A stretch of 49,675 bases of DNA from a virus: IMG/VR virus record IMGVR_UViG_3300021470_000001, positions 1-49,675 of that record. The stretch is one strand, 5' to 3'. A program made the translations under genes and the position numbers. Below are positions 1 through 49,675 of the stretch, one piece after another (position 1 is the first letter of the stretch; each line of letters begins with the position of its first letter). Below the pieces are notes generated by a model. It was not told where the DNA came from, searched no databases, and saw only the letters and a program-made list of their open reading frames with translations.

Positions 1-127
1 GAATGGCTAGAGGCAAACGCCTAGAGCCTATTGTGCGTGAGATGTACGAAGACCTGACAGGACTAAAGGTTGAGCCAGCCTGTGTTGAACACGAAAAGTT
101 TCCGTGGTTCATGGCCAGCCTAGATGG
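1..127. repeat. Terminal direct repeat, left copy (circular genome)
   Basis: Bases 1-127 are identical to bases 49549-49675. A 127-base exact overlap equals a common maximum assembly k-mer, so this is best read as the overlap of a circular contig and not a biological terminal repeat. The unique circle would be 49548 bp. The overlap lies inside one open reading frame that stays open across the junction. Confidence 0.95.
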
Positions 128-8559: not shown

Positions 8560-8866
8560 GAAAGCACTTAGCCTAACACTAGCTAGGTTCGATGAGCTAC
8601 TAAAGGTATACTATAAGGAGGCAACCGCTGGTAACAGAGAATCACTTCAGTCTGTGTTATCTATCATGGATAGACAGATTAAGATATTAGGACTTGAGGC
8701 ACCTAAGAAGTCTGAATCTACTGTCACATACCAGACGCTATCAGACCAAGAGCTAATACAACAGGCAGGTATGTGGGGTATCAGTATCCCAATGGACCAG
8801 CTGACTGTGCAACCTGAATCCCTGAATGATGGAAACTTTCAAAGTCATCCAGATTTATTGCAATAA
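8336..8866 (+). CDS. Probable small terminase subunit (HTH DNA-binding)
   Basis: The 176-residue protein has an N-terminal helix-turn-helix (about residues 28-62: KQGMTYAEIGRAMGVTRQAAYSYV) and a helical middle (ALSLTLARFDELLKVYYKEA..ESLQSVLSIMDRQIKILGL) as in many phage small terminases that recognise the packaging site and assemble as rings. The ATG at 8336 has AGGAGAAGG directly upstream; ATG 8384 is a fallback. The 224-base overlap with the upstream gene is unusual. It is 2.1 kb away from the large terminase, with four genes and two transcription units in between, so a transcription-factor role cannot be excluded. Confidence 0.55.
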   Translation: MLSDHTGEDNSGLKNKMSQHKIIKKERRLEAIGMRKQGMTYAEIGRAMGVTRQAAYSYVEREFKSLMKEGSVVAEKALSLTLARFDELLKVYYKEATAGNRESLQSVLSIMDRQIKILGLEAPKKSESTVTYQTLSDQELIQQAGMWGISIPMDQLTVQPESLNDGNFQSHPDLLQ

Positions 8867-8927
8867 TTCCCAGGTTGGTACGAATAACTAGTGTTGGCTC
8901 GTTGGAACCGCTTGTGAAGACGACAAC

Positions 8928-8962
8928 AAAACACCTAGATTTAACCCTGGGTGTTTTTTTTT
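8928..8962 (+). terminator. Rho-independent terminator of the replication operon
   Basis: An 11-bp stem (8928-8938 with 8947-8957, one T-G wobble) with an 8-base loop is followed by a run of nine T from the stem end. It follows the small-terminase stop by 60 bases. Confidence 0.9.
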
Positions 8963-8982
8963 ATTTATTTTTTCTGCTAACC

Positions 8983-9010
8983 TTGCCGATAGATAAATGT
9001 GGAGTAAGAT
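8983..9010 (+). promoter_or_regulatory. Candidate promoter of the second small operon
   Basis: TTGCCG (8983-8988), 16-bp spacer, TAAGAT (9005-9010), placed just after a strong terminator and 55 bases before the next start codon. It resembles the candidate at 1038-1065. Confidence 0.45.
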
Positions 9011-9064
9011 AAGCGTATAAGGATGACGCAGTGTCAACCTGAAACACTTGAGGGAGTGAAGACA

Positions 9065-9319
9065 ATGACTACTATTACTTTGGAATTCAATATGAGAGAT
9101 ATTAATGCAATCAGAGGGGCTGTTAACACAAAGTTAACAGTAACTGAACGCAATAAAAGAGACTTGAAAATGGCACTAAACAATTCGATGGTGCCAGTGG
9201 CTTTAAAGTGTGCGTTACACGAAGAGCTAAGGGAAGCTAACAACACCCTTCATGACCTGAGACTTCTAGAACACAAGATAGACGCTTTTGTAACTAACCA
9301 AACAGGGGAGGACATGTAA
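9065..9319 (+). CDS. Hypothetical protein, 84 aa
   Basis: No family recognised. The sequence is helical and charged (ERNKRDLKMAL, LHEELREANNTLHDLRLLEHKI), suggesting a short coiled coil. I chose ATG 9065 because the TTGAGGGAG leader motif (9048-9056) ends eight bases before it; the in-frame ATG at 9023 has AGG only one base away and is less likely. It is the first gene of a four-gene operon ending at the terminator at 10479. Confidence 0.65.
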   Translation: MTTITLEFNMRDINAIRGAVNTKLTVTERNKRDLKMALNNSMVPVALKCALHEELREANNTLHDLRLLEHKIDAFVTNQTGEDM

Positions 9320-9320
9320 C

Positions 9321-9503
9321 ATGACACAGGAAGAATATCAAAAAGCTACTGAGGACTTGGCGTTCGACAGGGAGCTAGCTAGGGATAAGGCTTGGTTAAA
9401 ATATCATGACGCTAGGACTAGGATTGACCTAGCGTATGATAAGGCTATGGAAAAACTTTGGAATAAACTTTGGGTCACTAAAAAGAAAGAGGTTGTATCA
9501 TGA
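9321..9503 (+). CDS. Small charged helical protein, 60 aa
   Basis: Unrecognised. Nearly the whole chain is charged and helical (RELARDKAWLKYHDARTRI...AMEKLWNKLW) with no membrane segment, so a small coiled-coil or partner-binding protein is plausible. GGGGAGGA at 9305-9312 is a very strong ribosome site. The stop overlaps the next start by four bases (ATGA). Confidence 0.6.
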   Translation: MTQEEYQKATEDLAFDRELARDKAWLKYHDARTRIDLAYDKAMEKLWNKLWVTKKKEVVS

Positions 9504-9961
9504 GTATTCAATTTGTGCGGAATGATGAGATTATACCTGCGTTGCTTGCTAGTGGTCACCTGACCACTGGCAACAAGATACCTAAGCTTTATAATACCTT
9601 GACTAAGCACAAGAATGGTAACCTCAGGAAGCCCTTAGAAGGCACAATATCTATTGAGGAGGCTAACGAGTGCACTGATAACTATTCAAAGAAATTGTGC
9701 ACCAATGAGAACCCCTATTACTACATTGAGTCTGATGACATCAATGATGAAACAGGTTACTCAATCCCAGGGTTGGATAAATACGACAAGGTCACAGGTA
9801 AGCCTATTGTAACCCACCTACAGAATTTGCAGCGTGAGTGGCAGATGGCTAAGGACACACGGTTGCCTATTGGATGGAAGCCAACCTGTGCTGTTGAACC
9901 AGCAGACCCTGAGAGAACAGCACATGAGCTTAGAATGTCTAAGTTCGTGATACTGGACTAA
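9500..9961 (+). CDS. Hypothetical protein, 153 aa
   Basis: No family recognised. Soluble, with an acidic centre (YIESDDINDETG) and a C-terminal half rich in Pro and Trp (LQREWQMAKDTRLPIGWKP). Its last residues KFVILD resemble the last residues YMILD of the GNAT protein that follows, which may be chance. It is start-coupled to the preceding gene and lies in the second small operon. Confidence 0.6.
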   Translation: MSIQFVRNDEIIPALLASGHLTTGNKIPKLYNTLTKHKNGNLRKPLEGTISIEEANECTDNYSKKLCTNENPYYYIESDDINDETGYSIPGLDKYDKVTGKPIVTHLQNLQREWQMAKDTRLPIGWKPTCAVEPADPERTAHELRMSKFVILD

Positions 9962-18643: not shown

Positions 18644-21600
18644 ATGATAATGCAAACAAGGTTCTCTAAATTTATTGACAAGGTTGTAGCTTTTAAAAAG
18701 AGAGCATACACAAACCGTATTTCTTTTTCAGCTAAAGTTGATAAAGTTAACAAAGTTGCTACACCGTCTAAAAAAGCTACAGCAGTTACAAAGCCTAAGC
18801 CAGATAATGGTATAACAAAGGCGGAGCACGCTACTCATGAAGATGCTGCAAATGCCCATTTAAACAATGACCCTTCAAAAGAAATTAGAGAAGCAACAAA
18901 TTTTACCCCATATGGTAAAGCAGCGCCACCACTTGGCCAAGGTACGGTGAATCAATTTCTACAGACTAAAGGATACAGGGACGGGGAGTACGAAAAACTT
19001 AGAGACAGCAGAAAAGGACAAAAAGATCATCTATTGTCTATTTTAAATAATACGCATTACTTTTTTGGGGCTAGGGTTAAAAAAGAAGACCAAGCTAAAG
19101 TTGACAAAGCCAATACCGGATTAAATGACGAGCAAATTGAGCACATAAACGGATTAGACCACGGTTTAAATAATTCACAATTACATGCATTATTGTATTT
19201 AGATAGTCATGATATATTAAAAGACGCTCCCCCTGTTATTTCTGATAGATATCAACAATCTAGATATTTTGACATGATGCGAGAGGAGATAGCTAGAAAA
19301 CAAGGTGCTTCAGGTCAGCCTATGTTAGATGAAGACGGTAAGCCTATGCATGATTCTAAAGGAAACGCTCTATTAAATCCTGAATTTAAATTAGATAAGA
19401 AAAGCTTAGGCAGTATACACGCCCGTGTGCGAAAATCAATTCTCCCAGAATTAGAAGGGGAAGAAGATGAGTACGCTTCAGATAAAAAGCTAGGCGCAAA
19501 AAAATTAACCGAAGCACAAAAAATGGAAAGGTTTCCCCCTATAATGCGGGGACTTATAAAAGGTGCTGCTGCTTTTGTTGGATTACTTAAAAACAAAAGA
19601 CCAAAAGGCGGCATTTCCGAACCTATGGTTCCAGAAGGTGAGAATGGTCAGTTTACAAATGAACAACTTTTAACATTAGACAAAGAGCTTAACCATTCCG
19701 GTGGTTACAGCCCAAGTGTAAACGCAAACTTCACACGCATGTGGCACTCCGTAATGCACCAAGAAGTTTGGGATTTAATAGACGGTACTGAATTAGGAAA
19801 AGATAAACAAGGTAAAGAATACAGCCCTTCAGAAAAAAAAGCCTTGTACCATAGCCAAGGCGCTAGAGGTGTTCTTGAAAAGTTATCTCAAGAAAAAATT
19901 AGTCAGATACCTGAAGGCACAGACCCAAAAACAGCTAAGTTGATGAAAGCTAAAATAGAAGATGATAGAATGCGTGCGGTTGTTGCATTAGGTTTAACCT
20001 TTGCTACAGACCACACAGCACAGGCGCTTGCCTCTGAAGGTGTAGCTAAAACATCAAGCGGAGATCCTAAAGATGGCGGATTTGTAATTTTACCTAGTGG
20101 CGAATGGAAACAATATAAAGACGAAGCTGCAAAAAATCAAATAGTAAAAGAGAATAACGCTGGTCAGGATTCTGGTGCGTTGTGGTATGACGATGATATG
20201 GCACAAACAGATGCGAATATTGTTGGGTTGCTTAATTTCTTAAATAAGGATAATCAAAAATCAGACAAAAATCCTGACGGGTATGTTAATATACCTAAAA
20301 TAGAAAACACAGTACCCCCTACTGATAGAGGGGTAGAGCAGCATATAATGCTGACTAATTTTAAAGCTTTAATGGCACCTACTAGTTTTGGGATGCAACC
20401 TGGGGCTAACCTAGGGGTTGCCGTAAAAATGTACAAACAAGCCCTAATAGAGAAAGCAAAAGACCCAGAAGGGAAAGACAAAAGTGTATTTGCCTACATT
20501 AGTACAAAACAAGATGAAAGTACGGACAAAGACGGTGTAGAGCACATACAACACGAAAATAGACTTTACGGAAGAGCTAAAGCATTATCAAATTCTATGC
20601 AAGTTACTGAGCCATCTCTTTTTGTGCATATAAATGCTTTGTACGCTGACCCTGACAATAAAGATAATATTAAAAAAGCTATATACTTGCAAAAAGAATG
20701 GATGCGTCTTGAAGACAATAGAGGTATTATTTATCAGGATGAAGAAAAACCTAAATTAAGACCAAAACAAAAAAAACCTAAAGAAGGCGAACCAGAACAA
20801 GAGAAACCAAAATTAGGAAAAATGATTATAAGGGGTGCACACAGCAGCACAGATAGCCTACAAAAAATAATTGAGGCTGCAAGAGATTCTAGTTTTAAAG
20901 TGCCCACAAAAATAGCAGAAGACGATTTAGATATAACTGTCAAAGGTGCTTTAAAAAAACCTAGCTTAACTGCACTTGGTAGAAACGCCAAGCTTGATGA
21001 TAAATTACAAAAGATGAATGATTGGGCAGACCCTTTAAAAACAGAAAGTCCTGACGGAATATATTCAAAAGAATACCAAAAAAAGATGCGCGAAGATGTA
21101 AAAAACATGGGTTTCTCTACCGAAGATCTACAAAAAGATTGGACGACTAGAGGTGGATCTATAAATCCTATGTTAAGGTTTATAAAGAATTACACCGCTG
21201 CATTTGGCAAAGATGGTGACAAACAATTAGCAGCTTTCCTAACAGGTTCACACAGTGCTAAGTTTATGGCTCAAGAGTGGGCTAAATATTCTCTGCACAC
21301 AGATGAGAACGGAAGAAATTCTTATCAAGTAGAAATAGAGCAAGCAAAAAAACTACCTGAACCACAAAGAGAAAACACAATAAAATCAATAAAAGAAGAT
21401 TACGCTGACTTTTTAAGAAAGACAGAAAAGAAATTTATAAGTGCTGCACCAGCGGGTTTAAAAAATTCTATAACTAGCGGGCAAATAGGTGTTTCCGGTT
21501 CTTATATATTTGGGCCTAAAGGTGGAAATTTTCATCAAGACCTATCGTACCAAGGCGGATACCCAACAAAAGACTTGTGGTATACTAGATGGATGCTTTG

Positions 21601-23551
21601 GGGCTTAGGCACCATGACAAATAAAAAAGGTTCTCTTATAGACACGCCACCTAAAGAATTAGCTGGTGCGTTTGATTTAATAAATCATTACACAGCCGAG
21701 CAATTTAAATTAAGCAACAAGCAAGTTCAAGCTATGGGTTGGTACCATTGGAAAAATTTTTGCACTCGTATGGGTGTAAAAACAGCGGGTATGGAAAACT
21801 ACACAAGTGCTTCTAAAAAGATTTATGAAAAGACATTAGGACCAGCAGCAAACAAAAACATAATGCCTGAAATACCAAAAGGAGATGCTGATGCATATGC
21901 AAAGACCAAATCAACAGAGCAAACCTCTAACGGAAAAGGAGTGCCACCACATATCTCAGCAGCTAATCTCGCAAGGGCTAATGCCGTCCTTGGAATCGAT
22001 TATACAGACACTTATAAAGAGCCGACCCGGTTGGCAGGAAGTCCTGGCAACCCACTTAAAAACTCAAAGGGAAAAAGAGGCACAAGACTACCCGGAAGAA
22101 ACGGAAGACGACTAAAATTTGCACAGTTCACACAAGCACCGGGTGGTATGACAGGAACACCTGTTGCGACTAGAACTAACCAGCCGTTCTCCAACGCTGT
22201 GGCTAAATCCCCAGGTGGTAAGAACCTAGCACAAGGTGCACTTGGTAACCAGATCAATGCCAAGGGTGGTGTAGAAACCACCGCACAGAATGCGGTTGGT
22301 GATTGGCCTAATGGTTCTGAAGAGTCAATCGTGCACACGGCGCCACAAGGCACCGATCCAGCTAGATTAAAATACCTAGCAGCTTGGCACGGTATCTCAG
22401 GGCAGAAGAAATCTGTACTTGTGTTCCACCCGAATTCAAAAGGTCCAGATAGTTTGTACCACATGACACACCCTTCAACGGACATGGGTGAAGTGCGAGA
22501 TTCCTTAATAGCGGCGGGTATAAACTACAAGACGCTGCTACCTGGAAAGACAAACACTAAAGTATTAGTGTACGACCCAAACAGGACAATGAGAAACACC
22601 GTAGATCAATATGCTACAAATAATAACTTAAATGTAGAAGAAAACATTGGACAAGGTGAGATTGTAGGACATAATGGTGATTGGAACAGCGCTGGTGCTC
22701 TACCGAAATCCAGACAAGCTTACACAAACATCATAGGTGAATATGAGCAGAATAGTAACCAAGCCGGGCCTTCCAACAATACTAGTGGGGCACCCACCAA
22801 TGGCACAGGCACCAGCACAGGGCAAGCCCAGCAACTCTCCCGCACAAACAAGGCCAAAATAAAATTTGACCGTAGTCGTAGGGTGTTAGAAGGTTTCCTG
22901 AGACAACACAACACACCTAACAAAGAGCTACCACCTGTTGGGGATTTACTAAGCCAAGACCTACAGAACATAAAGCCAGAGCATCTATCAAAGTATCAGC
23001 AGTTAATTCCAGACGCTAAGTGGTCAGACATAGAAGGTGCTGTAACCTCACTGAAAAAAGACCCTAGCTTATATGACGACATGACGAGTGAATCTAACAG
23101 GCGAGAGATGTACTGCAAGGAACACGCAAGGACAGTACTTCAAAGCAGTGGTTTAAAGAAGCTAATTGATAGTCTTAGAGTGCAAAATTTAATACCTGAA
23201 CACGCACAGCACTTGATTGAAGACGCTAAGGATGGAGATTACTTTTCCTTAGAAGCCATTAGCTCAGAACTACAACACAGCGTACCTTCACTGCGGGCTT
23301 TCTCAAAAGCCGCAGAGAAGGAATATAACAAAGCTGGAAAGGCATGGGATAAAATGCGAACAGTACAACCACAGAAGTTTGCTAAGAAATCCGCACACGC
23401 AGCAGATCAGTATCGAGCAGGTGCACACGGTATTACATTCCGTGGTAGGAACTACAACGGTGGACAATTTGCACCACAGAATGACGGTGTTAAAAGGTTT
23501 GAAAAAGACTCCAACCTAACACACATGATTAAAAAACTGCGAGGAGCTTAA
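18644..23551 (+). CDS. Giant putative virion protein, 1635 aa
   Basis: I do not recognise the family. The N-terminal 70 residues are strongly basic. Residues about 90-1080 are a long, Lys-rich helical region with no obvious repeats or enzyme motif. Residues about 1120-1210 are low complexity (Gly/Asn/Arg/Pro). A compact-looking domain at about 1240-1370 (LKYLAAWHGISGQKKSVLVF, VLVYDPN) and a helical C-terminus follow. Base use differs: up to about 21870 the gene is very A-rich (many AAA, ATA, TTA codons), while the rest looks like the neighbouring head genes, as if two sources were joined. Its place before the head protease suggests an injected or head-internal protein. ATG 18644 or 18650 may be the start. 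Confidence 0.7.
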   Translation: MIMQTRFSKFIDKVVAFKKRAYTNRISFSAKVDKVNKVATPSKKATAVTKPKPDNGITKAEHATHEDAANAHLNNDPSKEIREATNFTPYGKAAPPLGQGTVNQFLQTKGYRDGEYEKLRDSRKGQKDHLLSILNNTHYFFGARVKKEDQAKVDKANTGLNDEQIEHINGLDHGLNNSQLHALLYLDSHDILKDAPPVISDRYQQSRYFDMMREEIARKQGASGQPMLDEDGKPMHDSKGNALLNPEFKLDKKSLGSIHARVRKSILPELEGEEDEYASDKKLGAKKLTEAQKMERFPPIMRGLIKGAAAFVGLLKNKRPKGGISEPMVPEGENGQFTNEQLLTLDKELNHSGGYSPSVNANFTRMWHSVMHQEVWDLIDGTELGKDKQGKEYSPSEKKALYHSQGARGVLEKLSQEKISQIPEGTDPKTAKLMKAKIEDDRMRAVVALGLTFATDHTAQALASEGVAKTSSGDPKDGGFVILPSGEWKQYKDEAAKNQIVKENNAGQDSGALWYDDDMAQTDANIVGLLNFLNKDNQKSDKNPDGYVNIPKIENTVPPTDRGVEQHIMLTNFKALMAPTSFGMQPGANLGVAVKMYKQALIEKAKDPEGKDKSVFAYISTKQDESTDKDGVEHIQHENRLYGRAKALSNSMQVTEPSLFVHINALYADPDNKDNIKKAIYLQKEWMRLEDNRGIIYQDEEKPKLRPKQKKPKEGEPEQEKPKLGKMIIRGAHSSTDSLQKIIEAARDSSFKVPTKIAEDDLDITVKGALKKPSLTALGRNAKLDDKLQKMNDWADPLKTESPDGIYSKEYQKKMREDVKNMGFSTEDLQKDWTTRGGSINPMLRFIKNYTAAFGKDGDKQLAAFLTGSHSAKFMAQEWAKYSLHTDENGRNSYQVEIEQAKKLPEPQRENTIKSIKEDYADFLRKTEKKFISAAPAGLKNSITSGQIGVSGSYIFGPKGGNFHQDLSYQGGYPTKDLWYTRWMLWGLGTMTNKKGSLIDTPPKELAGAFDLINHYTAEQFKLSNKQVQAMGWYHWKNFCTRMGVKTAGMENYTSASKKIYEKTLGPAANKNIMPEIPKGDADAYAKTKSTEQTSNGKGVPPHISAANLARANAVLGIDYTDTYKEPTRLAGSPGNPLKNSKGKRGTRLPGRNGRRLKFAQFTQAPGGMTGTPVATRTNQPFSNAVAKSPGGKNLAQGALGNQINAKGGVETTAQNAVGDWPNGSEESIVHTAPQGTDPARLKYLAAWHGISGQKKSVLVFHPNSKGPDSLYHMTHPSTDMGEVRDSLIAAGINYKTLLPGKTNTKVLVYDPNRTMRNTVDQYATNNNLNVEENIGQGEIVGHNGDWNSAGALPKSRQAYTNIIGEYEQNSNQAGPSNNTSGAPTNGTGTSTGQAQQLSRTNKAKIKFDRSRRVLEGFLRQHNTPNKELPPVGDLLSQDLQNIKPEHLSKYQQLIPDAKWSDIEGAVTSLKKDPSLYDDMTSESNRREMYCKEHARTVLQSSGLKKLIDSLRVQNLIPEHAQHLIEDAKDGDYFSLEAISSELQHSVPSLRAFSKAAEKEYNKAGKAWDKMRTVQPQKFAKKSAHAADQYRAGAHGITFRGRNYNGGQFAPQNDGVKRFEKDSNLTHMIKKLRGA

Positions 23552-43744: not shown

Positions 43745-46135
43745 ATGCCAGCAAATTTAAATCCATCGTATGCTCCAATAGGTGGTGGTGGAAGAACTAT
43801 TGCAATAGGTGTTCCAGATGACCTACCAACAGGTTACCATTGGGTCCGCAATCTATTAAATGGGCAAACAACGGGCGGTTCTCAAACTTCATACTCAACA
43901 GGAACCAACAACTCTAATTTTACCGAAGGTAGCACAAACTGCCTAAGTGCGGTGTACGCTAAAGACGCTGGAAACACTGGACCGGGTGCGTTGCAATTCA
44001 CAGTCTTTTTAGGTTGTATTAAAACAGGGGCAGACCCAGAACCACCTACTGTAAATGTGTACGCATCCACTATGCCGGGGCAATCAGGACTAATAGCTGA
44101 TTATTCGGGTGATGGCTTAGTTCAGCAGTTTAGATGCAAAGTAAGCACGACCCCCGGTGTTGGGGAAAGTGGATTAGTCACCATTGCTTATGCGCCACCA
44201 GCAGGATTTAAAGGACTAATGTGGTATGAGATAAATGTAATCGGATATGTCAGCTATCTTGCCGTTAATGGGAATGGTTCTTCAAACTCACTATATAACT
44301 TGCGAGGAGTTCCTAACAGTAGATCGGGTTGGGATCGAGGTGGTGGTATCTGGAAGGGTTCTCAAAGAGCTTTAGTTTACCCGATTTCTAATAATCTCAC
44401 AACTAGCGTTGTAAGTCAGTATTCGACTTCTCCTAATTTTGCTATTGGTGAAAATAATAATGCCGATGGAGTAAATTCACTTTCCATTTATATTAGTAGG
44501 GATGACCAATGGGATAGCACTACACTTGCTCGAACAAATTCAAACAATCCTACTCGAATGAATATTGCGAGTGGGTACGCAACTGAATATGGTTATGGAA
44601 CTAATGGGCAAGTGTATGTTGCCGCATCTGAGGGTGTTAGCTGTGTTCCATACAGGCCCGCTAATAGTGTGCAACTTGACACAATTGGAACTTATGCGAA
44701 TCAAGAAGATAATGCCCCCAAGCCTAGTGCGTATGTGTTAACCCAAAATCAATGCCCCGGTACTTCTTACGAAGATCAATGGTATTTCACATCAGCATCA
44801 ACATCAATTCTTCAAACCAATGTAACTGTGACTGTGTGGCTAGAAAAAGCACCCGATCCTATTCCAATAATGAATAATAACAACGGTGTTTATTGTTATG
44901 CCACAGGGGGAACAGTAACTATTAACGGAAGTAATTTTACTAATGTAAATAAAGTGTATGGCTACGGTGGTCAAATTTTAACAGGCGCAACAGTAAATGT
45001 AATTTCAGATACGGAAGCAGAAGTTACTTTGCCAACGAACACATTCGGTACTATTGGTTTAGGAATAGGAACAGGCAATGTAGGTTATACTACTCTTCCC
45101 AATGGCGGGTGTGCTAGCGGTGTACCAAATTATAATCCAGTATATAATCCTCCGAGTCCTGCCCCAGTACCAACTCCAACTCCCCCAAATACCAATGTAT
45201 GCATGGGTGGTTGGACTTTTGGAATAAAGACGAACACTACTTATTTGTGGGATGGCCCAAAAATCGTTAGCTACGATGGAACTGTTTTCATGGCCCCAAA
45301 TGCGGGTACATGGACAGTTAATGCAATTGAAACTTGCCTAGACTTTAATATTCAAGATGTGTACCTCCAGAATGGTACATACCTAAACCCCGGTGCAGGC
45401 GAAATTATACAAATTATCGATTGGGGCTATCCGTATGATGGTAGCTATTATGTTTATTCAAATAGCTTACTAGGTACAGTACAAAGGCGATTACAACTAT
45501 CCTGCACAAACACAAGCCCCACACCCACACCCAGCCCGATCCAAACAGGCACTTGTATTGCACCTGCAAACACAAACAATGGACCTTTTGCTTTTCCAAC
45601 ATCTCCGACACTAAATGAAATTTATAGCTTTCATGGGCGTGCGTGGTATTGGAACAGTTATGCGTGGAACAGATATTGCGTAGGTGTTACACCAATTTCA
45701 ACAACAAGTCCGGCTTTATCTCTTTACAGTAGTACTGAGGTAGATAATTATGGAACTCGAACTCAAACCGGAACAGGATATTATGGTGAAACAAATTACA
45801 TATTAGAATACACGCTAAATGATTTTGATACGGAAGCAATTTTGCAACAATCGTACCAAGTTGAAGTTCCAGGATATGCAAGTATGTTTGCTGTTTCTTC
45901 AGGAAACAACGGAACTGTAATTCAAGTACAAGGCAATGCAAATAACACGGCAGGGCGAGCTTTTTCTATAAGTAGTTCTGGAACAACATTTGTATCAAAG
46001 ATGTTACAAATTGGAGATATAATAGATGTGTATATAAGACTTAACCATATAACAGGACAGTATGGAAACGGAATTTTGCAGCCTTCATCTACATACGCTC
46101 GATTTGAGTTTATATCTCAATCCACAAGACCATAG
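43745..46135 (+). CDS. Putative receptor-binding protein with IPT/TIG domain, 796 aa
   Basis: The first ~375 residues are unrecognised beta-rich sequence, with Gly, Asn, Ser and Thr abundant. An IPT/TIG-like domain follows (about 385-455: YCYATGGTVTINGSNFTNVNKVYGYGG..., DTEAEVTLP). Two Pro/Thr linkers (PSPAPVPTPTPP and SPTPTPSPIQTG) separate it from two C-terminal beta domains. Codon use is more T/A-rich than the preceding adhesin genes. Likely the outermost, exchangeable host-binding protein. AGGAG precedes the ATG. Confidence 0.65.
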   Translation: MPANLNPSYAPIGGGGRTIAIGVPDDLPTGYHWVRNLLNGQTTGGSQTSYSTGTNNSNFTEGSTNCLSAVYAKDAGNTGPGALQFTVFLGCIKTGADPEPPTVNVYASTMPGQSGLIADYSGDGLVQQFRCKVSTTPGVGESGLVTIAYAPPAGFKGLMWYEINVIGYVSYLAVNGNGSSNSLYNLRGVPNSRSGWDRGGGIWKGSQRALVYPISNNLTTSVVSQYSTSPNFAIGENNNADGVNSLSIYISRDDQWDSTTLARTNSNNPTRMNIASGYATEYGYGTNGQVYVAASEGVSCVPYRPANSVQLDTIGTYANQEDNAPKPSAYVLTQNQCPGTSYEDQWYFTSASTSILQTNVTVTVWLEKAPDPIPIMNNNNGVYCYATGGTVTINGSNFTNVNKVYGYGGQILTGATVNVISDTEAEVTLPTNTFGTIGLGIGTGNVGYTTLPNGGCASGVPNYNPVYNPPSPAPVPTPTPPNTNVCMGGWTFGIKTNTTYLWDGPKIVSYDGTVFMAPNAGTWTVNAIETCLDFNIQDVYLQNGTYLNPGAGEIIQIIDWGYPYDGSYYVYSNSLLGTVQRRLQLSCTNTSPTPTPSPIQTGTCIAPANTNNGPFAFPTSPTLNEIYSFHGRAWYWNSYAWNRYCVGVTPISTTSPALSLYSSTEVDNYGTRTQTGTGYYGETNYILEYTLNDFDTEAILQQSYQVEVPGYASMFAVSSGNNGTVIQVQGNANNTAGRAFSISSSGTTFVSKMLQIGDIIDVYIRLNHITGQYGNGILQPSSTYARFEFISQSTRP

Positions 46136-46147
46136 TTTAGGTGAAAA

Positions 46148-46531
46148 ATGCCAAGACCTTGCACATGCAATAATGTAATTCCTAACAGCACTTGGGATAA
46201 CACACAGTGCCAACTTTGTTGGCATTACCACCACAACACAAGGGTGAGGGCAGCCTGGGATAATGACGAACCAATACAAGTTCCACCTATGTTAGAACAA
46301 GCTAGCTCTTTAATGTCTTCTGTAGCTAAATGGGGCTTTTCAGGTTGCACTCGAGTGCCCTTAGAAGTGCAAGCAAACAGGCTAAACATTTGCAATAACT
46401 GTGAATTTAAAAAAGACGATAAATGCGGAGTTTGTGGATGTTTCTTAAAAATCAAAGCTAGCTGGATCACTGAGAAGTGCCCACTAGGGAAATGGAGCGA
46501 ACATGACACCACAGGATCTACCCCCAATTGA
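46148..46531 (+). CDS. Zinc-ribbon-like protein, 127 aa
   Basis: Two Cys groups are visible: N-terminal Cys5, Cys7, Cys21, Cys24 with nearby His residues, and C-terminal Cys82, Cys85, Cys93, Cys96, Cys98, Cys111 in RLNICNNCEF...CGVCGCFLKIKASW...CPLGKW. The second is a common phage zinc-ribbon pattern of unknown role found near virion genes. No membrane segment. It overlaps the next small gene by 29 bases. Confidence 0.6.
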   Translation: MPRPCTCNNVIPNSTWDNTQCQLCWHYHHNTRVRAAWDNDEPIQVPPMLEQASSLMSSVAKWGFSGCTRVPLEVQANRLNICNNCEFKKDDKCGVCGCFLKIKASWITEKCPLGKWSEHDTTGSTPN

Positions 46532-46667
46532 ACTTTTAGAGGATATTTTACTACCTTTAAAGTGGACTATTGATAGAATATACTGGTGGGGATTCAAGGA
46601 CGGAGTTACAATGGGAGGCGTTGCGTTCTTTGTGTTGTTCCTTCTCACTAACAGGAGAGCATCATGA
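46503..46667 (+). CDS. Small membrane protein, 54 aa (possible lysis gene)
   Basis: Too short for routine calling but well supported: GGAG six bases before the ATG, overlap with the preceding gene, and a four-base ATGA overlap with the following peptidase gene. The chain has an amphipathic acidic start (LPPIELLEDILLPLKWTIDRIYWWGF) and a single hydrophobic segment (MGGVAFFVLFLL, about 37-48), ending in TNRRAS, giving a cytoplasmic positive tail. Its place before a membrane-anchored hydrolase fits a holin or pinholin-like protein, which is inference. Confidence 0.6.
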   Translation: MTPQDLPPIELLEDILLPLKWTIDRIYWWGFKDGVTMGGVAFFVLFLLTNRRAS

Positions 46668-47428
46668 ACAAGGTAATCGGCATGTTAATTCTAGCTGTAG
46701 GCCTTATAGCAGCTAACGAGGTGTACTTTGGGAACCTGAAGTTTGACCCAATGCCACTTCTTAGGCCAAAAATTGTACCACCAATACCACTACCAATTAT
46801 CCCAGATGTACCTAAGCCTAAACGACCTTGGGGCACAGACCTAGAAGGCTCAGTTGAGTCTATTACTCTAGGTGGTTCTATCGCACCTGACGGTTCTACG
46901 CCACTACAGATTGACTTCCCTTTAGCACAGCACATCAGCAACATTGGTTCTCATGTGGACGGTGCGGGTATGTGCGTGATGTCTTCTATTGAGATGGCTG
47001 GAAGGTGGCAGAACCTAGAGCAGGTTCGTGGCCTACGCAATTGGTGTGCCAATAAGCCAGGTGGTGGGTACCCTTCCAAGGTAGACAAACAACTAAAAGA
47101 GTACTCTCAGGTACAGAAAATCAACACGCCTGAGTATGTGCAATATGAAGGGAAAGAGCTAGACCTGCTTAAGCTAGCACTCAAGACAGGTAGGTTTCCA
47201 GCTGTGACCTATTCAGGGCGTGATAAAGTGCGATATTCGAGCACAATCGCCCACATGGTGTGTTTGGCTCACTTAGACGACAAGTGGGCAGCAATATGGG
47301 ATAATAACGGCACAGCAGGCGAGCTAATCTGGATGACCCCTGAAGAGTTTAAAAGTAGATGGACTAATGATTCCAATGGTTGGGCTTTCGTATGGCTCGC
47401 ACCACCACCACCACCTGTGCCACACTAG
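46664..47428 (+). CDS. Membrane-anchored papain/C39-like cysteine peptidase, 254 aa
   Basis: Residues 4-18 (VIGMLILAVGLIAAN) are a signal anchor with Lys3 before it. A Pro-rich linker follows (31-55). The catalytic-type domain starts near residue 85: Cys104 in GAGMCVMSSIEMAGRW, His197 in AHMVCLAHLDDKW and Asp213/Asn214 in IWDNN, the Cys-His-Asp/Asn order of papain-like and C39-like enzymes. The chain ends in a Pro stretch. Between holin-like small membrane proteins it may act as the lysis enzyme on the wall or an envelope protein, or in tail entry. No lysozyme, amidase or transglycosylase was found elsewhere. Confidence 0.65.
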   Translation: MNKVIGMLILAVGLIAANEVYFGNLKFDPMPLLRPKIVPPIPLPIIPDVPKPKRPWGTDLEGSVESITLGGSIAPDGSTPLQIDFPLAQHISNIGSHVDGAGMCVMSSIEMAGRWQNLEQVRGLRNWCANKPGGGYPSKVDKQLKEYSQVQKINTPEYVQYEGKELDLLKLALKTGRFPAVTYSGRDKVRYSSTIAHMVCLAHLDDKWAAIWDNNGTAGELIWMTPEEFKSRWTNDSNGWAFVWLAPPPPPVPH

Positions 47429-47436
47429 GAGATATG

Positions 47437-48177
47437 ATGAACTTACTATTTGCTGTGATTATGTTTTTAGACTTTAGCTGGGTGCCTACTGACGATTCTC
47501 GTCAGGTGGCACTATACAAGGACTCTGTACAAGTGGGTGTGTACAAGGTGCCTGAACGAGTTTACTTGGAGATGGATTCAAAGGGTAACTTCAAGGAGTC
47601 CACACTTCCTACACCAATACCAGATAAATATTTAGACCTATTTCCTATAAAGAAGATGGCTAATTATGGTATTGAGTTATCCGAGATGAAGGGCAGGCCT
47701 GAGAGTTACTACCACAACGGTAGGAGTATCACTAAGGAGAGTGCACTTCTGCTTATGGGCACCCAGGGTATACCTGACGATAGTCTGTTTATACGAATCA
47801 CTGTAATTGGTTCGGACGCAATGAGAAAGAAGGTGCGCGATGACTTATACAACGACCCTGCACTTTCAGACTTTAGATCTTTCACAGTAGTACAAGACTA
47901 CCCTAAAGACCACTGGGCGGTCAATGGTGTGGGATTTGAGGCTAACAGTGAGATTGCAATCTATGTGCAATCTCCAGACGGCACGGTGGTGCATAGACAA
48001 AACGACTACACGGATGGAGCAGTAGGTTTGGCAACAGCACTACGGAAGGTGGACCCTAACTACCGGAAGGGGGGTGATCCAGATCTCAGAGCTACCCTAG
48101 AGGGATCTCTGTTGGTTGTTGTTATTATTGTTACACTTGGTTTGGCGGTATTCTTTTTTAGAAGGAGTGATGACTAA
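47437..48177 (+). CDS. Membrane protein with N-terminal signal and C-terminal anchor, 246 aa
   Basis: The N-terminus MNLLFAVIMFLDFSW is a signal-like hydrophobic stretch; a C-terminal helix LLVVVIIVTLGLAVFFF (about 224-240) followed by RRSDD is a membrane anchor with a basic cytoplasmic end, so the ~200-residue middle is probably outside the cytoplasm. The middle is alpha/beta (SLFIRITVIGSDAMRKKVRDDL) and unrecognised. I chose ATG 47437, with TAGGAG five bases upstream; ATG 47434 is too close and the longer frame starting at 47380 lies inside the peptidase gene. Possibly a spanin-like or envelope partner of the peptidase. Confidence 0.6.
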   Translation: MNLLFAVIMFLDFSWVPTDDSRQVALYKDSVQVGVYKVPERVYLEMDSKGNFKESTLPTPIPDKYLDLFPIKKMANYGIELSEMKGRPESYYHNGRSITKESALLLMGTQGIPDDSLFIRITVIGSDAMRKKVRDDLYNDPALSDFRSFTVVQDYPKDHWAVNGVGFEANSEIAIYVQSPDGTVVHRQNDYTDGAVGLATALRKVDPNYRKGGDPDLRATLEGSLLVVVIIVTLGLAVFFFRRSDD

Positions 48178-48359
48178 TGAGCATTATTACTATTGCATGT
48201 GGATGTGCGTGTTTTTTTGGTGGTTGGGTTGCAAGAGAAGTTTGCAGGCCTAAAGACCACCCTATCATTGATGGCGTGCGAAAGCTTTTAGCACAGAAAG
48301 CTAAAGACGCTAAAGTTATTGATGTTGAAGAAGAACTCAAAAAACTTAAAGGAGTCTAA
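48177..48359 (+). CDS. Small one-span membrane protein, 60 aa
   Basis: A hydrophobic, Cys/Gly-rich start (IITIACGCACFFGGWVA, residues 3-19) is followed by a charged helical tail (KLLAQKAKDAKVIDVEEELKKLK), i.e. an N-terminal anchor with a cytoplasmic or periplasmic coiled coil. It is coupled to the previous gene by a one-base overlap, with AAGGAG upstream. Part of the same membrane-protein cluster; function unknown. Confidence 0.6.
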   Translation: MSIITIACGCACFFGGWVAREVCRPKDHPIIDGVRKLLAQKAKDAKVIDVEEELKKLKGV

Positions 48360-48361
48360 TT

Positions 48362-48514
48362 ATGGCTGGTTATAAAACATACCTTGCTTGTGCTGGATTA
48401 TTTGGTTTAGCACTTTACCAATTCTCACAAGGTCAGATTGAGCAAGCTAGCCAATCGTTCCTAGCTGCATTAGCTGCTTACGGCTTACGCAGTGCATTGA
48501 AGAATGTAGCCTAA
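48362..48514 (+). CDS. Small hydrophobic helix protein, 50 aa
   Basis: This short gene fills an otherwise empty gap: AAAGGAG at 48347-48353, ATG at 48362 and a stop that overlaps the next start (TAATG). The product is small and neutral with two weakly hydrophobic helices (YLACAGLFGLALYQF and AALAAYGLRSAL) separated by QGQIEQASQ. Similar phage ORFs are often listed as small membrane or holin-like proteins, but I cannot assign a function. Confidence 0.6.
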   Translation: MAGYKTYLACAGLFGLALYQFSQGQIEQASQSFLAALAAYGLRSALKNVA

Positions 48515-49233
48515 TGGGAAAAGTGCTTATAGCTGGTGAGTGTAGTAATGGTGTCGCATCGCACTTGCGTGCGTTGGGGCACCATGTCACCACTGCTGAT
48601 TTTAAACCCAACGAGGTTGACCAGACAAACCACCACCAAGGGAACTATTGGGATCTTCTAGACGGTAGCCACCATTGGGATATGTTGTTAGGTCACCCCA
48701 CCTGCACGAACATGGCTAACAGTTCAGTAAGCAGGCTAACACAAAAGAAGGCGGATGGTACGCTGGCGTACCCTACTAGAATGCAAGACATGCAGAGGGA
48801 TGCGGAAGACTTCAAACGCATGTTAAACACACCACACGCCGATAGGGTGATGTTAGAGAACCCTGTTATGCATGGGCACGCAACAAGGATAATTGGTGAG
48901 AAGTCTAGCTTTGGAATCCAGCCATTTCAACACGGTGCGACTGAGTCAAAGCAGACTAGGTTCCACACACGCAATGTGCCACCCATGAAGCCAACCCAGG
49001 TTATGCCTAAGCCTGCTAATGGTCTTTGGGATAACCAGATGCGTGGTAAGAATGGGAAGGTGTACCCTAAAGAGGCACCATCCGCACAAAGAGCAACAGA
49101 CAGATCGCGCACAAGGCCTACTGTAGGTAAAGCTATTGCAGACCATATACACTCTTTAATTCCACCACCAGAAAACAAGGTTAAAATGTCTAGAAGAAAA
49201 GACGGATCTTGGTATTTTACTAATGCAGTCTAG
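48514..49233 (+). CDS. DNA methyltransferase-like phage protein, 239 aa
   Basis: This resembles a common phage family with a methyltransferase fold: VLIAGECSNGVASHLRALGHHV (SAM-binding strand-loop-helix, residues 4-25), WDMLLGHPTCTNMANS (about 55-70), DADRVMLENP-type segment VMLENPVMHGHA, and a C-terminal RSRTRPTVGKAIADHI helix. The PTC takes the place of the usual Pro-Cys of C5-methyltransferases, with Cys retained. It may act as a cytosine methyltransferase on phage DNA, or be an inactive relative; a full C5-methyltransferase is also encoded at 14297. Confidence 0.6.
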   Translation: MGKVLIAGECSNGVASHLRALGHHVTTADFKPNEVDQTNHHQGNYWDLLDGSHHWDMLLGHPTCTNMANSSVSRLTQKKADGTLAYPTRMQDMQRDAEDFKRMLNTPHADRVMLENPVMHGHATRIIGEKSSFGIQPFQHGATESKQTRFHTRNVPPMKPTQVMPKPANGLWDNQMRGKNGKVYPKEAPSAQRATDRSRTRPTVGKAIADHIHSLIPPPENKVKMSRRKDGSWYFTNAV

Positions 49234-49453: not shown

Positions 49454-49675
49454 TGCTGCTGTACTAATGGGTTCCAACCCTTGGTGCAAGCCAGACGAAC
49501 TAATGGGAAAAAAAATAGGAACTATACCTGAACAGTACGAGAACGAAAGAATGGCTAGAGGCAAACGCCTAGAGCCTATTGTGCGTGAGATGTACGAAGA
49601 CCTGACAGGACTAAAGGTTGAGCCAGCCTGTGTTGAACACGAAAAGTTTCCGTGGTTCATGGCCAGCCTAGATGG
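49371..49675 (+). CDS. YqaJ-like viral recombinase/exonuclease, N-terminal part (continues at position 1)
   Basis: This is the 5' part of the gene completed at 1-425. The ATG at 49371 has GAGG nine bases upstream and opens VTLDQSGQEWLRWRQGGVGGSDAAVLMGSNPW, the typical YqaJ start in which the GGSDAA loop binds the DNA end. The frame runs on without a stop through the 127-base overlap, giving 200 residues in total. It overlaps the small upstream gene by 83 bases in another frame. Confidence 0.85.
   Translation, partial: MLNCKYVTLDQSGQEWLRWRQGGVGGSDAAVLMGSNPWCKPDELMGKKIGTIPEQYENERMARGKRLEPIVREMYEDLTGLKVEPACVEHEKFPWFMASLD
49549..49675. repeat. Terminal direct repeat, right copy
   Basis: Exact second copy of bases 1-127. 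See the left copy: the pair shows that the contig is circular, and only one copy exists in the genome. Confidence 0.95.

Follow-up and report, generated by a model that had tools for sequence, protein, structure and literature searches.

In lambda-type phages, the holin-endolysin-spanin cassette is a compact late set of transmembrane (TM) proteins and one hydrolase, and the lysis genes adjoin TerL. In signal-arrest-release (SAR) endolysins such as P1 Lyz, an N-terminal segment tethers the hydrolase to the membrane. Lytic enzymes with a C39-type peptidase domain are also on record. The N5 domain of mycobacteriophage Lysin A (e.g. Bxz2 gp11) is a cysteine protease domain with an HHpred match to a Bacillus anthracis C39-like peptidase (PMC3314691), and PeiR, the lytic enzyme of the Methanobrevibacter ruminantium provirus phi-mru, has a C39-type domain as its sole catalytic domain (PMC6189367). 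The peptidoglycan of Planctomycetes contains diaminopimelic acid (DAP) and is sensitive to lysozyme (PMC4432640), one planctomycete phage was reported to exit without lysis (PMC10945688), and the literature searched describes no lysis enzyme for phages of Planctomycetes. Here we analyze IMG/VR virus record IMGVR_UViG_3300021470_000001, whose whole stretch of 49,675 nucleotides is referred to as the window, and in it a five-gene cassette encoding a C39-like cysteine peptidase and a predicted thioredoxin (Trx)-fold partner. The cassette probably serves a planctomycete phage, most likely one of Gemmataceae, as a late module for envelope attack (lysis).

A C39-like peptidase paired with a predicted Trx-fold protein

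The cassette consists of five open reading frames (ORFs) on the + strand at 46503-48514, neighbors overlapping by 4 or 1 bases or standing 8 or 2 bases apart (aa, amino acids):

46503..46667, + strand, 54-aa protein with a C-terminal TM segment, overlapping the peptidase start by 4 bases
46664..47428, + strand, C39-like cysteine peptidase of 254 aa, named from its fold and alignments
47437..48177, + strand, predicted Trx-fold partner of 246 aa, named from its predicted fold and the pairing
48177..48359, + strand, 60-aa protein with an N-terminal TM segment and a charged cytoplasmic-type tail
48362..48514, + strand, 50-aa 'GYKTY' protein with one TM segment and an amphipathic helix, a holin candidate

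A first-pass annotation, made from the window sequence, had proposed these five coupled genes, and they are borne out. Close viral relatives have all five, arranged in the same order. Nei-Gojobori dN/dS values against relatives were 0.02-0.08 for the 54-aa gene, 0.05-0.08 for the C39 gene, 0.13-0.15 for the 246-aa gene (close relatives), 0.13-0.24 for the 60-aa gene and 0.09-0.17 for the 50-aa gene (two informative pairs). Such strong purifying selection indicates that all five are true genes and not chance ORFs.

The peptidase is made up of an N-terminal hydrophobic segment (residues 4-22), a Pro-rich stalk (~28-56), a catalytic domain (~66-246) and a conserved poly-Pro end (APPPPPVP). Its triad, Cys104, His197 and Asp213, with 16 residues from the His to the Asp in the window protein, is invariant in alignments of 8 and 25 rows and conserved in 66/66, 65/65 and 65/65 aligned non-redundant relatives, respectively. 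The N-terminal hydrophobic segment is present in 61 of 66 peptidases, against 14% of random control stretches, and the poly-Pro end in 63 of 66, against 2.7% of controls; the stalk is an extra found in some members, the window peptidase among them. In one subgroup (L018:5890-5990, L021 and L028), which also has a tyrosine-integrase-like gene, the stalk is cysteine-rich (CKDCNCDPCKCDPCKDGKC) and not solely proline-rich.

An AlphaFold model of the peptidase, built with eight relatives, was of low confidence (mean pLDDT 54.8). The top Foldseek matches to it were C39 peptidases: the PCAT1 peptidase domain (7n87; E 4.2e-4, probability 1.00), then the C39-like 3erv (E 1.8e-3, probability 1.00), with 5xe9 (probability 0.99) and ComA (rank 8, probability 0.99) further down. 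Matches among viral predicted structures included two phage entries named 'Peptidase', the 'Lysozyme' of Synechococcus phage S-CBP1 (E 7.7e-4, probability 1.00) and, at lower significance, two endolysins. The comparison with C39, NlpC/P60 and CHAP folds suggested by the first-pass annotation thus put C39 structures first. An NlpC/P60 or CHAP identity was rejected, as neither gave a profile match and CHAP-annotated entries fell far below the C39-like ones in the fold search. With moderate confidence, the peptidase is predicted to have a C39-type papain-like fold, in keeping with the membrane-anchored C39-like enzyme originally proposed. It has no Pfam or PHROG family match, and the Pfam and NCBIfam C39 profiles matched none of 25 family members; the family is therefore named C39-like by fold and not filed in PF03412/PF13529. 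Sequence profiles from the PDB gave nothing convincing for either the peptidase or its 246-aa partner.

The 246-aa protein has a signal-like start, no cysteines and a C-terminal TM helix (215-245). Its Trx-like strand reads AIYVQ, compared with PTIYVQ, within 'G-x-P-T-I-x-[VL]', in most relatives. A fold search with a model of moderate quality returned 4fyb (probability 0.99) and 3o6t (TMt 0.61), with no Trx match at E below 0.01 and with flavin monooxygenases above or among the Trx-fold matches. The protein is best described as a predicted ectodomain of Trx fold followed by a C-terminal TM helix; the original account of four small or anchored membrane proteins was right as to their coordinates and coupling but needs this correction for the 246-aa member. 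A C-terminal hydrophobic segment follows the Trx domain in 59 of 66 cases, compared with 4% in controls. CXXC is absent from 65 of the 66 partners and lies outside the expected place in the remaining one. The Trx-fold protein is accordingly not a classical reductase, and a role as redox partner, keeping the peptidase cysteine reduced, was rejected.

The peptidase is one half of a near-obligate pair. Among 106 C39 loci, the Trx domain is fused to the peptidase in 59, adjacent in 41, 465-469 bases away in two and without a match in four, some of them because the contig ends there. Thirty-two of the 66 non-redundant C39/Trx pairs are fused, the tree contains at least 8 fusion/fission changes on well-supported branches, and distances in one domain are correlated with those in the other (r = 0.52; 0/2000 permutations as high). 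In L202, one of three distant planctomycete loci (L202-L204), the protein after C39 matches the Trx profile (E 1e-3), bears a signal and is C-terminally anchored; in L203 and L204, C39 is likewise followed by a signal-bearing, C-terminally anchored protein, whose Trx likeness was judged by eye only. The Trx-fold gene of a Gemmatales genome (L030, ~8760-9590) has an in-frame stop just past its signal-like start. The near-obligate, often fused pairing was missed in the first-pass annotation, as were a trypsin-like protease in related loci and a DUF6171 gene as 5' neighbor, both described below.

Small genes for proteins with one or two TM segments follow C39-Trx in most loci examined, of the GYKTY type in the window group and of the KPGWKT type in others. 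Relatives of the 54-aa protein precede C39 in loci of Gemmataceae and in other viral loci, length variants (60-100 aa) of the 60-aa protein come after the Trx gene, and relatives of the GYKTY protein are also found in a Gemmatales genome. By topology and position, the 50-aa protein is a holin candidate. A close relative of it had no PHROG match, and sequence-based holin identification among the small TM genes yielded nothing beyond two weak PHROG holin matches (E 0.14 and 0.22). No lipobox was seen by eye in the five cassette proteins.

Hydrolase content, gene surroundings and host

The window ends in 127 identical bases, a direct end repeat, and a YqaJ recombinase gene spans the junction, the record having been opened inside that gene. 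Together these indicate a complete, circularly closed genome of ~49.5 kb, so the missing classical endolysin carries weight. No wall hydrolase came up in a Pfam scan of the window (+ strand ORFs of at least 100 aa and the two large - strand genes), nor in a six-frame search for Amidase_2, SLT, Phage_lysozyme, M15_3, NLPC_P60 and Amidase_3. The same six families, searched in six frames across 40 C39-bearing viral records including the window, gave nothing above the cut-off and a single sub-threshold match of 13 bits; control genomes gave matches in these searches. The initial observation that no lysozyme, amidase or transglycosylase is recognizable therefore extends to the complete genome, and a classical endolysin domain in another gene, which would have spoken against the proposal, was not found among the six families.

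The features that close the genome and bound the cassette are:

1..127, left-hand copy of the genome-closing end repeat, repeated on the right at 49549-49675
43745..46135, + strand, 796-aa protein after the tail-fibre genes, variable among relatives, the 5' boundary of the cassette
46148..46531, + strand, Zn-ribbon protein of 127 aa with a Pfam DUF6171 match, a conserved 5' neighbor
48514..49233, + strand, DNA-methyltransferase-like gene (phrog_757), the 3' boundary of the cassette

The genome also encodes a Mu-type portal, TerL, a scaffold protein, a collagen-type tail fibre and DNA polymerase A. Between the portal and scaffold genes lies a gene for a 1635-aa protein (18644-23551) without a significant family match; in L204, the C39 gene comes after the gene for a protein of comparable size (1825 aa). 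The 796-aa gene diverges widely among close relatives except over a short conserved part (residues ~604-646), a pattern expected if receptor-binding proteins are swapped, and the DUF6171 gene is probably outside the enzyme system. The cassette follows the tail-fibre genes in the window group and lies just upstream of TerL (phrog_38) in the distant planctomycete loci L202 and L203; both are usual positions for lysis genes.

The number of viral contigs with the C39 family rose from 16 to 22 and then 99 as the search alignments grew. The earliest matches in cellular genomes were to two metagenome-assembled genomes, one from Gemmatales and one from Gemmataceae. The family is present in 24 of 95 Gemmatales-family genomes and in only 4 of 392 genomes of a phylum-wide sample, and the queries used found no relatives among 50,697 GenBank phages and 72,556 plasmids. 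Its occurrence in Gemmataceae genomes suggests, from the distribution of the C39 family alone, that the host of the window phage is a planctomycete, probably of Gemmataceae. The C39-Trx set is apparently a common solution among phages of this group.

A relative with an 85% identical portal adjoins bacterial-looking genes (L194, G140:C1:1-16000), so some relatives appear to be temperate. The same genome, G140 (46.9 kb, no C39), was set aside as a comparator since it is an integrated prophage whose sequence breaks off ahead of the cassette and is therefore uninformative. In Gemmataceae genomes (L080, L085 and L074), in L127 and in other viral contigs of 10-15 kb, the C39-Trx set is carried by phage-derived elements with genes, named by eye, for TerL, portal, prohead protease, major capsid protein and head-tail adaptor, along with ParB-like and ABC/GNAT genes. 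No tail genes were seen between their head genes and the cassette, and these elements are possibly tailless or gene-transfer-agent-like.

Related loci also encode an exported trypsin-like protease, identified by motif and local profiles and not by curated family search. In the Gemmataceae genome G023, L089 (7427-9655, - strand) encodes a single secreted chain of C39, trypsin-like and Trx folds with a C-terminal TM helix, the trypsin-like domain sitting between the other two; in L095 and L162, a separate trypsin-like gene lies 1.3-1.8 kb behind C39. A KPGWKT two-TM gene follows C39-Trx in L102, L104, L114 and L141. In L231 (8447-9181, + strand) and L244 (10006-10698, + strand), which have no C39, the trypsin-like protease gene stands directly before a KPGWKT gene, here with a long repeat-rich tail (LPIAGAPKQE...). 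Among 42 loci of the HK97-type capsid lineage with enough downstream sequence, 12 have C39, 6 have the trypsin-like protease, none has both and 24 have neither, indicating that the C39 gene is not universal in the lineage. Mutual exclusion of the two enzymes is suggestive, yet not significant (hypergeometric estimate ~0.11).

Proposed function of the cassette

Lysis is the best-supported reading because of the position of the cassette, its coupling to holin-like genes, the export signals, the lack of classical lysins among those tested and its wide conservation. From the fold (in a low-confidence model), the triad, the pairing and fusion, the hydrophobic segments, the gene order, the purifying selection and the absence of six hydrolase families, we infer export, holin action, timing, substrate and lysis as the outcome, as follows. 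The 254-aa peptidase would leave the cytoplasm by Sec and stay tethered to the inner membrane through its N-terminal segment, while the Pro-rich stalk would let the catalytic domain reach into the periplasm. There it would act paired with the Trx-fold protein, itself anchored by its C-terminal TM helix; lacking redox cysteines and anchored in this way, the partner is more probably a module for substrate binding or positioning than a reductase. Holin-type action, permeabilizing or depolarizing the inner membrane and setting the timing, would fall to the small TM proteins (the 50-aa, perhaps also the 54- and 60-aa proteins). The bond cut may be either a peptidoglycan cross-link or one in an envelope protein. 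The DAP in planctomycete peptidoglycan (PMC4432640) and the C39-type domains of lytic enzymes (PMC3314691, PMC6189367) make a wall endopeptidase plausible, and the trypsin-like protease fused to, beside or replacing C39 keeps protein cutting in consideration.

Several points weigh against the lysis reading. It is read from genes, the model of the peptidase structure has low confidence, and none of the sequence profiles ties the family to any characterized C39 enzyme. The C39 gene is patchy in the HK97-type capsid lineage (12/42 testable loci), a few copies have chromosomal neighbors and no obvious phage genes around them (L077), and in one prophage the cassette stands among tail genes (L062). 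Many of the 40 viral records searched are fragments, although the window is not. With six families searched in six frames, an unknown lysin might still be present in one of several large virion proteins, such as those of 1635, 919 and 773 aa, that have no annotation.

Some of the same observations bear on other roles. Within lysis, the C39 enzyme might be a true protease that opens the way out by cutting planctomycete envelope proteins, instead of or besides peptidoglycan cross-links. The exported trypsin-like protease recurs with C39 (the L089 fusion; nearby in L095 and L162), takes its place before the KPGWKT gene in L231 and L244 and never occurs together with it in the 42 capsid-lineage loci, which hints, in small numbers, that proteolysis as such may be the activity common to both enzymes. 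Cases are few, however: only 3 of ~66 C39 cassettes have a trypsin-like protease, the non-overlap falls short of significance and the trypsin-like calls come from motifs and local profiles. We regard this as a tentative minority view. Doubtful is the stronger proposal that planctomycete phages and phage-derived elements exit by protease-based lysis, in which a tethered C39-type protease and its redox-dead Trx-fold partner would cut envelope proteins and not peptidoglycan, a trypsin-like protease sometimes replacing or joining them.

Superinfection exclusion or another envelope modification, late or in lysogeny, would have the enzyme process a receptor or surface protein. An anchored protease with a possible substrate-binding partner suits such specific processing, an integrated prophage is among the relatives, and some chromosomal copies (L077) lack phage neighbors. 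Exclusion genes are usually scattered accessory genes, whereas phages of very different kinds retain this set, together with its small TM genes, in their late region, and no other lysis enzyme was found in these genomes among the six families; a role of this kind is unlikely. Least probable is entry through the envelope, the alternative offered at first, with the peptidase packaged or displayed and acting at infection. The cassette does adjoin tail-fibre genes in the window and lies within the tail module in L062, but export or anchor segments at the N-terminus (61/66) and hydrophobic tails on the partner (59/66) are not how a virion protein synthesized in the cytoplasm would be built, and distant relatives hold the set beside TerL, away from tail genes.

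The family is a concrete lysis-enzyme candidate, found on ~100 viral contigs and in a quarter of the Gemmatales-family genomes examined, with no match in the family databases searched. It opens two questions to test: how phages get out of bacteria whose phylum has an unusual envelope, and for what reason a hydrolase should require a Trx-fold partner devoid of redox cysteines. The family may also mark uncultivated viral contigs as having planctomycete hosts.

Comparison with known systems

The first-pass annotation spoke of a possible new type of lysis system. A lysis cassette is the better-supported part of that claim; stated flatly, 'new type' goes too far, because C39-fold lytic enzymes had already been described (PMC3314691, PMC6189367) and lysis is here inferred. 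One close parallel is N5 of mycobacteriophage Lysin A, whose match is apparently 3erv, the second match of the window peptidase. Both are C39-type domains, N5 in phage lysis enzymes and the window domain in a probable one; unlike N5, the window domain forms an enzyme by itself and comes with a membrane segment and a Trx-fold partner. PeiR, a viral cell-lysing enzyme, resembles it in having the C39-type domain as single catalytic domain; it differs in having pseudomurein-binding repeats and attacking pseudomurein, and the available part of its description mentions no Trx-fold partner or membrane anchor (PMC6189367). The C39 domains of PCAT1 and ComA are the best fold match and share the Cys-His-Asp triad, but they cleave leader peptides in the cytoplasm and are linked to a transporter, whereas the window enzyme has no transporter and an N-terminal export or anchor segment.

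Like the lambda-type cassette, the window set is small and compact, and it adjoins the terminase gene in distant relatives; unlike it, it has no classical hydrolase and includes a Trx-fold partner, and its holin and spanin roles are not identified by homology. The hydrophobic segment at residues 4-22 recalls SAR endolysins, although a Pro-rich stalk and a C39 fold set the peptidase apart from P1 Lyz with its lysozyme fold. C39-fold lytic enzymes were thus already known from mycobacteriophages and a methanogen provirus; what is new is a C39-like family that is stand-alone, anchored and tied to a redox-dead Trx-fold partner.
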